DNA of 64,000 nt. It comes from Pseudobacter sp. GTDB taxonomy: Bacteria; Bacteroidota; Bacteroidia; Chitinophagales; Chitinophagaceae. The notes beneath the pieces are model-generated. The model searched no databases. It had not been told where the DNA came from and saw nothing but the letters and a program-made list of their open reading frames with translations. Positions 8,428 through 9,775 of this stretch are shown piece by piece; the stretch's first letter is position 1, and each line of letters begins with the position of its first letter. The stretch spans positions 62,001 through 126,000 of the forward strand of contig JAFIGX010000022.1 in the NCBI GenBank assembly GCA_017849455.1. Direction: 5' to 3'. The position numbers and the translations under genes are program-made.

Positions 8428-8712
8428 TTAATCGAAATCATATTTCAATAGATCGGAAGGATGCATATCGAGCCCTTTGGCCAATTCGTACAAAGTAGAG
8501 ATCTGCACATTGAACCTTCCATGCTCCATCTTGGAAATATTACTGTCGTCCAGGTCACAATTCTGTGCTACCTCCCGCAGGCTCAGTCCTTTATCCAGGC
8601 GAATTTTCTGAAGGTGTTCTCCAAACTGCTTCTTTAGCCGGGAGTAATCCTTCTTCGTTTTTGTTTTCTTCTTCATAGGTTTGCTTGTAGGTTTGTTGGT
8701 TCTGTTTGTCAA
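8428..8712 (-). CDS. small XRE-family DNA-binding protein
   Basis: A 94-residue protein. The first 30 residues are Lys/Thr-rich (KKKTKTKKDYSRLKK); residues about 33-92 form a cro/C1 helix-turn-helix: IRLDKGLSLREVAQNC, DDSNISKMEHGRFNVQ and TLYELAKGLDMHPSDLL. Alone it looks like a stand-alone regulator; there is no toxin partner next to it. Upstream on the other strand lies the candidate structured RNA at 8846. An ATG 12 codons downstream (MKKKTK) is an alternative start. Confidence 0.85.
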   Translation of the reverse strand: MTNRTNKPTSKPMKKKTKTKKDYSRLKKQFGEHLQKIRLDKGLSLREVAQNCDLDDSNISKMEHGRFNVQISTLYELAKGLDMHPSDLLKYDFD

Positions 8713-8771: not shown

Positions 8772-8779
8772 TATATTTG
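8772..8779 (+). promoter_or_regulatory. TAnnTTTG box upstream of candidate RNA (distal)
   Basis: TATATTTG, an exact consensus match, in the AT-rich gap between the divergent XRE gene and the candidate RNA. A start about 4-7 bases after it would add a leader to the RNA at 8846. Confidence 0.4.
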
Positions 8780-8833: not shown

Positions 8834-8841
8834 TAGTTTTG
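8834..8841 (+). promoter_or_regulatory. TAnnTTTG box upstream of candidate RNA (proximal)
   Basis: TAGTTTTG, an exact consensus match. It lies inside a short inverted repeat (AAAACTA ... TAGTTTT) and just before the folded region that starts about 8846. Confidence 0.45.
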
Positions 8842-8845
8842 CGAA

Positions 8846-9199
8846 CTTCATAAAGAGATCGTTTGAAGCTTTCGCTTTGATTCTCGTCCTGAAAAATTGG
8901 CGTTTTAAAGGAAACGGGAAGATAAGTGAAGAGCCCACGTTACTGCGTGGGTTCTCTCTTACTCGTTTCCGGGCCGCCAATGCCTTCAGGACGGTAAGCT
9001 GAGACCTACGCTTTTTTATTGCAGTGTTCTGACCACTCCCATCTAAAAGCGATTAGTCCCAAACTACCAGAGCTCCGGCGCGGAAAGCTCAGGTTATACA
9101 TGACCGTGTGCAGGGTCTCATGCTTACACAATTTTTTCTCTTATCGGAATGCTGGTTAAAGGCTCAGGTTCTCCTTTCAGTGCGGGAGGAGAACTTTTT
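8846..9199 (+). ncRNA. candidate structured non-coding RNA, family unknown
   Basis: No convincing protein is encoded between 8713 and 9244, yet the region is more GC-rich than normal spacers here and folds on paper. Domain 1 (8885-8993) is a rod of nested helices: 8885-8893 CGTCCTGAA with 8985-8993, 8897-8902 TTGGCG with 8975-8980, 8910-8916 GGAAACG with 8964-8970, and 8934-8939 CCCACG with 8946-8951. Domain 2 (8994-9127) is closed by a 13-bp helix: 8994-9006 GTAAGC-TGAGACC with 9114-9127 GGTCTCA-(T)-GCTTAC; inside are GAGCT...AGCTC and TAGT...ACTA hairpins. Two promoter boxes precede it; a T-run (9131-9137) and a strong terminator (9168-9199) follow. It lacks the RNase P, tmRNA and SRP core sequences I know. 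A 5'-UTR of the decayed sigma gene is the main alternative. Confidence 0.5.
9168..9199 (+). terminator. intrinsic terminator after the candidate RNA
   Basis: GTTCTCC (9168-9174) pairs with GGAGAAC (9188-9194) and is followed by TTTTT. It lies before the ATG of the sigma-factor remnant, so it would end or attenuate a transcript coming from 8846. Confidence 0.7.
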
Positions 9200-9244: not shown

Positions 9245-9775
9245 ATGAACTATTTCGCAAAGGGTACGGCCGCACCGAAGGACCTTACCACCTTTATCCG
9301 ACAATTTGTATCCGGCGACCCGAAAGCATTCAGGTCCGTATTCTATCAGTTCTATCCGGCGCTTTGCTTTTTTGCCAATCGCCTTATCAACGATCCCGCT
9401 GCAGGAGAAAAGATCGTAGCAGACAGTTTCAGCGGGCTCTGGCGCCAACGCTCTTGTTTTAAAGACCTCACAGCGATCAAAACTTTTCTGTACAGCAGTA
9501 CCCACAAAGGCTGTTCTCAGCATCTGCGCAGCCAGCCCAACCAACACCATGGATCATGCCACGGGGAACAGTTATCGAACTCAGGAGACCATCTGCTCCA
9601 GGAGGTCATCCGGGCCGAGCTTATTCGCAGCATCGATACCGTTCCAGGTCTGCTGCCGGCAGGCTTTCAGCATAAGACCGGCCGCAGACGATCCGGCAAA
9701 TCATACCCGGCACAGAGAAAAAAAACACGGGGGCCGATTCCCCGGGACCACTCATCAAAAGGATCACCTATTTGA
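9245..9775 (+). pseudogene. ECF sigma factor with a degraded region 4
   Basis: From ATG 9245 (MNYFAKGTAAPKDLTTFI) the first 110 residues are a good sigma-70 region 2 of the kind seen in Bacteroidota: AFRSVFYQFYPALCFFANRL, EKIVADSFSGLWRQR, and AIKTFLYSSTHKGC. After RSIDT (about residue 137) the expected region 4 helix-turn-helix is absent in this frame, which turns into Arg/Lys/Pro-rich sequence. Pieces that resemble region 4 appear in the two other frames: CRQAFSI in one, and TIRQII followed by PLIKRITYLIS in another, as if two indels had scrambled it. Region 4 binds the -35 promoter element, so the product should not work normally. No anti-sigma gene follows. A short divergent region-2-only protein is the alternative. 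Confidence 0.65.

Follow-up and report, generated by a model that had tools for sequence, protein, structure and literature searches.

Amino-acid operon attenuators (trp, phe and leu and, within the phylum Bacteroidota, Bacteroid-trp, RF01692) set a 1:2 helix and a 3:4 terminator against a 2:3 antiterminator, and transcription-terminating riboswitches couple a complex kissing-loop junction to the choice between antiterminator and terminator before a gene. The EAR and HK022 put read-through RNAs are structured leaders near the transcription start of long operons, and 6S RNA (RF00013) and 6S-Flavo (RF01685) form long rods. We analysed a window of 64,000 nucleotides from Pseudobacter sp. (contig JAFIGX010000022.1, positions 62,001 to 126,000) and found that one of its spacers is, as judged by comparison with related loci, one copy of a putative and undescribed RNA element found at hundreds of Bacteroidota loci. 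We propose that this element acts in cis as a bistable transcription attenuator: a leader RNA that has its own promoter and lies ahead of the gene or operon it would control. We give this reading a probability of about 0.74.

The element has the same strand arrangement as the amino-acid operon attenuators, but it has no conserved leader peptide, its hairpin loops pair together (P1–P3, kissing P2) and its cargo is other than amino-acid biosynthesis. It resembles the riboswitches in its kissing-loop junction coupled to a terminator choice before a gene; unlike them, it has no evident ligand or pathway, and its two folds account for most of the conserved bases. Its length (about 185 nt) and long rod are similar to those of 6S RNA and 6S-Flavo, from which it differs in being multi-copy and cis-linked, without a central bubble and with a bistable terminator. 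Compared with the EAR and put RNAs, it has its own conserved terminator and shows no sign of an effect on distal terminators. Leader-peptide (ribosome-mediated) attenuation was rejected as a candidate mechanism, as few copies (6 of 81 and 5 of 61) carry an ATG-started ORF of at least 8 codons.

Search for known RNA families

The initial annotation, made from the letters of the window, had suggested a novel structured RNA, possibly phylum-specific or 6S-like, and had proposed an Rfam scan and a covariation analysis. In the Rfam 15 scan of the window no family reached its gathering score (best sub-threshold match 20.4 bits, with 55 needed), and two of the four sub-threshold matches were Phe_leader and Leu_leader. 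Across 20 related loci no family was found at the element, the hits above threshold being one tRNA and a Flavo-1 RNA that lies apart from it. The 6S RNA model had no match in the genome or the window (this model matches only 5 of 14 control genomes), and 6S-Flavo had no match in the full Rfam scans. A search of a collection of papers found no earlier description of the element, the survey of 224 motifs being addressed only via the Rfam scan. Together with the massive compensatory change reported below and the confinement of the copies found to the phylum, these results bear out the suggestion of a novel, phylum-specific structured RNA.

Extent and distribution of the element

The spacer contains the conserved element and, further downstream, a second terminator-like repeat:

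8838–9021, + strand: whole conserved element, about 185 nt (alignments and a match of 173 bits to the covariance model R1)
~9169–9198, + strand: second terminator-like inverted repeat and T run, read from the sequence, outside the conserved element and with no homology in BLAST searches

The region 8846–9199 had a fold energy of -133.8 kcal/mol (z -5.9, better than 100 of 100 shuffles), and its opposite strand folded equally well (z -6.1), so that the strand cannot be read from folding energy, which by itself proves little. BLAST matches to relatives ended near query position 170–180 of 354 and the R1 match ended at 9021; the unit is thus about 185 nt and not the 290–350 nt that had been proposed. 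Homology stopped at the T run near 9020, and the distal half (9021–9199) was mostly unconserved and specific to the window copy, except for the tail partner at 9113–9127 described below. The earlier picture of two domains is wrong, and the evidence as a whole favours a cis-acting leader.

A DNA search with the element found 5 places in the same 5.5-Mb genome and copies in 30 of 197 genomes of the family, at 70–78% identity over the first ~175 nt. We aligned 34 copies and built R1, which recovered 5 copies in the window's own genome. Of the genomes scanned, it found the element in 89 of 194 in the family (at most 8 copies each), 70 of 295 in the class and 18 of 198 in the phylum, 2 of the last being weak hits outside the class; with the strict filters applied, all these counts are lower bounds. 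The copies found thus all lie within the phylum and nearly all in one class. Carriers include Terrimonas, Niabella, Lacibacter, Sediminibacterium, Parafilimonas, Pinibacter and Agriterribacter and, more distantly, Chryseobacterium, Kaistella and Flavobacterium. Two groups stand out in the R1 scores: copies above 115 bits form the main family, usually beside a divergent XRE gene, and those at 54–93 bits form the diverged subfamily 2.

A multi-copy sequence rich in palindromes could also be a repeated DNA element (MITE- or REP-like) whose hairpins serve its own mobility. We consider this highly improbable and strongly disfavour it, since copies within the own genome (65–77% identical to each other) are no closer than copies between genomes (mean 70%), no copies were found in the plasmids, phages and viral contigs searched, promoter position and gene orientation are fixed, and two alternative folds both carry compensatory change.

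Fold A, a rod with a kissing-loop contact

The first of these folds, fold A, is a rod composed of P1, P3 and P4 with hairpin HP1 on its 5' side and HP2 on its 3' side, and the loops of HP1 and HP2 pair to form P2. Its parts in the window are:

8885–8893, + strand: P1 5' strand (helices 1–2, double changes in 6 of 6 pairs)
8891–8906, + strand: HP1 hairpin with an A-rich / U-rich stem, loop 8897–8902 being the P2 5' strand (helix 3, 92.6% paired, double changes in 2 of 4 pairs)
8910–8916, + strand: P3 5' strand, partner of 8964–8970 (helix 5, double changes in 4 of 4 pairs)
8914–8939, + strand: strand 2, including the P4 5' arm at 8921–8939 (covariation in both folds, fold energies)
8945–8962, + strand: strand 3, the P4 3' arm, paired to strand 2 in fold A and to strand 4 in fold T (covariation in both folds)
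8964–8970, + strand: P3 3' strand (fold A covariation)
8972–8984, + strand: HP2 hairpin GGC/GCC, loop 8975–8980 being the P2 3' strand that kisses the HP1 loop (helices 4 and 9)
8985–8993, + strand: P1 3' strand (fold A covariation)

The rod at 8885–8993 is thus present as the initial annotation described it. Among 100 copies, 94.9% of cells were standard pairs, 30 of the 37 pairs showed compensatory change and 705 cells were double-changed, counts that lean towards the rod because alignments A2 and A9 were fitted to the rod model. Covariation reached 0.547, compared with at most 0.09 with slid partners, and the P2 kissing helix showed double changes in 7 of 7 pairs with 98.3% paired. We infer that in three dimensions the modelled pairs of fold A would form a four-way junction in which the two hairpin loops kiss.

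Fold T, a predicted conserved terminator

Fold T joins strand 1 to strand 2 and strand 3 to strand 4, and the U-tract comes directly after strand 4. The additional parts are:

8841–8875, + strand: 5' hairpin, GCGAACTTCA / TGAAGCTTTCGC, overlapping strand 1 (94–96% of cells paired)
8868–8887, + strand: strand 1, the putative anti-antiterminator, pairing with strand 2 in fold T at -18.0 kcal/mol (94–97% paired in the main family)
8994–9011, + strand: strand 4 (tail), 3' half of the predicted terminator (fold T covariation, pairing energy)
9012–9020, + strand: terminator U-tract (77 of 81 main-family copies carry 6 U or more in the 9 nt that follow the 3:4 helix)

The structure of R1 lacks the strand 1:2 and 3:4 helices, and RNAalifold picked fold T unprompted. 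Overall, 94.8% of cells were paired, 28 of the 40 pairs showed compensatory change, 361 cells were double-changed, and covariation was 0.349, compared with at most 0.08 with slid partners. The pairs of HP1, HP2 and P2 are common to both folds; without these common helices, the 1:2 and 3:4 helices were still 79–99% paired, with both sides changing. The 5' hairpin is nearly invariant, and for this reason it provides weak structural evidence. The sequences of subfamily 2 differ widely, yet 57 of 61 copies there retain complementarity between strands 1 and 2 (p≤0.05, mean z -3.3).

Pairing of strands 3 and 4 in the window amounts to -20.6 kcal/mol, just before the T run, and these two strands with the T run are predicted from the comparison to be the conserved terminator. 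The initial annotation also named a terminator; an inverted repeat and T run do lie at the distal site listed above, and the conserved one has its T run at 9012–9020. Its statement that the helices nest without conflict likewise fails, given that the tail, which it had put in a second domain, also pairs with strand 3 of the rod.

Two mutually exclusive folds

Strands 2 and 3 each take one partner at a time, so folds A and T exclude each other. In 87 of 97 copies, all six core columns of strand 3 are able to pair with either partner. This strand seldom changes, and at its most-changed column (A-U-A to G-C-G) 5 of 5 copies keep both helices. Main-family copies give the two folds similar energies (-59.3 and -54.9 kcal/mol). 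In subfamily 2, where fold T was modelled with main-family columns, it is far weaker (-30 kcal/mol, compared with -55 kcal/mol for fold A). Comparison of the copies shows that selection maintains both outcomes. The element thus has, at the level of sequence, the general mark of an attenuator, namely two mutually exclusive conserved folds of which one is a predicted intrinsic terminator.

Pairings past the U-tract

A third alternative for the tail would exist only in read-through RNA:

9113–9127, + strand: downstream partner of the tail (-21.2 kcal/mol with 8994–9011)

This is the 13-bp closure of 8994–9127 reported in the initial annotation, and it does exist. A tail partner past the U-tract was found at p≤0.05 in 23 of 141 copies, with 7 expected, and tail pairing before the start codon is a minority feature that includes the window copy. 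Universal pairing of the tail or of the 5' GAGTC past the U-tract was rejected: a first test was weak, and in a retest with the full tail just a minority of copies was enriched.

These pairings, with the window's 13 bp among them, and a start codon that falls within an inverted repeat in some copies (L014, L101) would suit a read-through or translation device, in which the leader modifies RNA polymerase (as put and EAR do) or tail pairing gates the start codon. We regard such a device as unlikely, because most copies have no tail pairing or an unremarkable one and strand 3:4 pairing with a U-tract is near universal.

Just past the U-tract, loci L014, L099, L100 and L101 carry the inverted repeat GACTCATAA...TTATGAGTC, with the sigma start codon within the possible hairpin; the first arm of this repeat also matches the GAGTC of strand 1. 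At L080, L082, L090, L092 and L096, the U-tract and the following GTG can pair with CACAAAAAA beside the start codon, and these loci precede DNA-methylase and other restriction-type genes.

Promoter box and upstream gene

Two features lie on the upstream side of the element:

8431–8712, - strand: divergent Cro/C1-type (XRE) regulator gene, 94 aa (Pfam HTH_26 3e-10, HTH_3 2.6e-9)
8834–8841, + strand: predicted element promoter -7 box of Bacteroidota type, TAGTTTTG (sequence)

Both the XRE gene and the two exact TAnnTTTG boxes (at 8772 and 8834) had been noted in the initial annotation and are confirmed here. TAnnTTTG stands at exactly the fixed place of the second box in 48 of 81 main-family copies, with ~6 expected anywhere in -60 to +12. 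A divergent Cro/C1 (XRE) gene is the usual upstream neighbour in the main family; HTH_3 by itself matches 41 of 75 divergent neighbours. This divergent regulator probably sets how often the element promoter fires.

Downstream genes

The next gene, defined as the first downstream ORF of at least 100 aa, shares the strand of the element in 70 of 80 main-family copies (70:10) and in 18 of 18 subfamily-2 copies (18:0), and the element is therefore upstream of and co-oriented with a gene, as an attenuator would be. The distance to the start codon is tight for sigma genes (~45–52 nt) and wide for other genes.

Own promoter, own terminator and long rod, in several copies per genome as in some sRNA families, could also belong to a stand-alone RNA regulator, 6S-like or acting in trans, that finishes at the U-tract and has bystander genes downstream. 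The same-strand bias argues against this, a conserved alternative to the terminator would have no obvious use in such an RNA, and the rod has no 6S-like central bubble; 6S RNA is not known to occur in up to eight divergent copies. We therefore consider a stand-alone RNA improbable, and the 6S-like reading of the initial annotation finds no support in a multi-copy element tied to a same-strand downstream gene and carrying an internal terminator/antiterminator switch.

Products downstream of the main family included sigma-70 region 2 proteins (21 of 73), TonB receptor domains (~9), redoxins (7) and response regulators (3), and operons took the forms sigma - FecR - SusC - SusD or redoxin - SusC. 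Most proteins downstream of subfamily 2 were unclassified, many beginning with what resembles a signal peptide; the rest included type III and type II DNA methylases (up to 5 of 58), RibD_C (3), response regulators (3) and a type I HsdR. In the window, the downstream gene is:

9245–9772, + strand: decayed ECF sigma gene, region 2 kept and region 4 lost (Sigma70_r2 9.3e-6 with no other match; alignment)

The initial annotation had called this gene dead, in agreement with the match to Sigma70_r2 alone. Small sigma-like proteins with region 2 and little or no region 4 follow several copies, two of them in the own genome; examples are the window gene, L116 4354–4818 and the downstream ORFs of L012, L046 and L118. 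They reflect either repeated decay or a genuine class of proteins that have region 2 only.

Small unclassified proteins (70–200 aa, e.g. MPEENYYPGFNIPASQLSKF-type ORFs) recur downstream (L001, L004, L006, L015, L020, L030, L077, L129, L130 and L133), with no convincing Pfam match in those scanned. The fifth copy of the own genome is followed by an ORF (L117, 1336 onwards) that resembles, by eye only, a retropepsin-like aspartic protease (LLDSGADECMFP). A Flavo-1 RNA (RF01705, 63 bits) was found at L091 1073–1148, ~350 nt upstream of a subfamily-2 copy.

Proposed mechanism and meaning

Comparison of copies brings out both folds, the U-tract, the promoter box and the same-strand gene. On the attenuator reading, termination by fold T in vivo, read-through by fold A and a signal-driven choice between them would be the consequences, and the order of folding events during transcription would be as follows. 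Strands 1 and 2 would pair as they are transcribed and, if this helix is stable, strand 3 would meet strand 4 and polymerase would stop at the U-tract. If strand 1 is held off (e.g. by the 5' hairpin or a stabilised junction), strands 2 and 3 would pair as P4 and polymerase would continue. In fold A, P4 would stack on P3 and P1, held by the two kissing hairpins, and strand 4 would be left without a partner, allowing read-through into the gene. The fold would be chosen by a signal that acts on strand 1 or the four-way junction and could be a small molecule, a protein or the kinetics of transcription; the downstream cargo is diverse, so no single ligand suggests itself.

The window copy is intact by score and keeps both folds. 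It has ~200 extra bases ahead of the sigma gene, including the second terminator-like repeat, and because of these bases and the loss of region 4 from the sigma gene, the locus may be a functional relic though its RNA is typical.

A wider and more speculative possibility, which we hold tentatively, is that the element is a phylum-wide orphan switch with near-balanced folds, targeting SusC/D uptake operons, restriction-modification genes and secreted proteins. It would then be a general RNA device for bet-hedging or state-sensing, in up to eight copies per genome and often with a dedicated Cro/C1 regulator.

Covariation reveals both states of the proposed switch. Point mutants that lock one fold or the other could therefore be made in laboratory strains straight away, which turns the search for the trigger into a well-posed problem. 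If the attenuator reading is true, a large class of regulatory RNA would be added to a phylum with few known, at loci that govern which nutrients are taken up and which defence genes are active.
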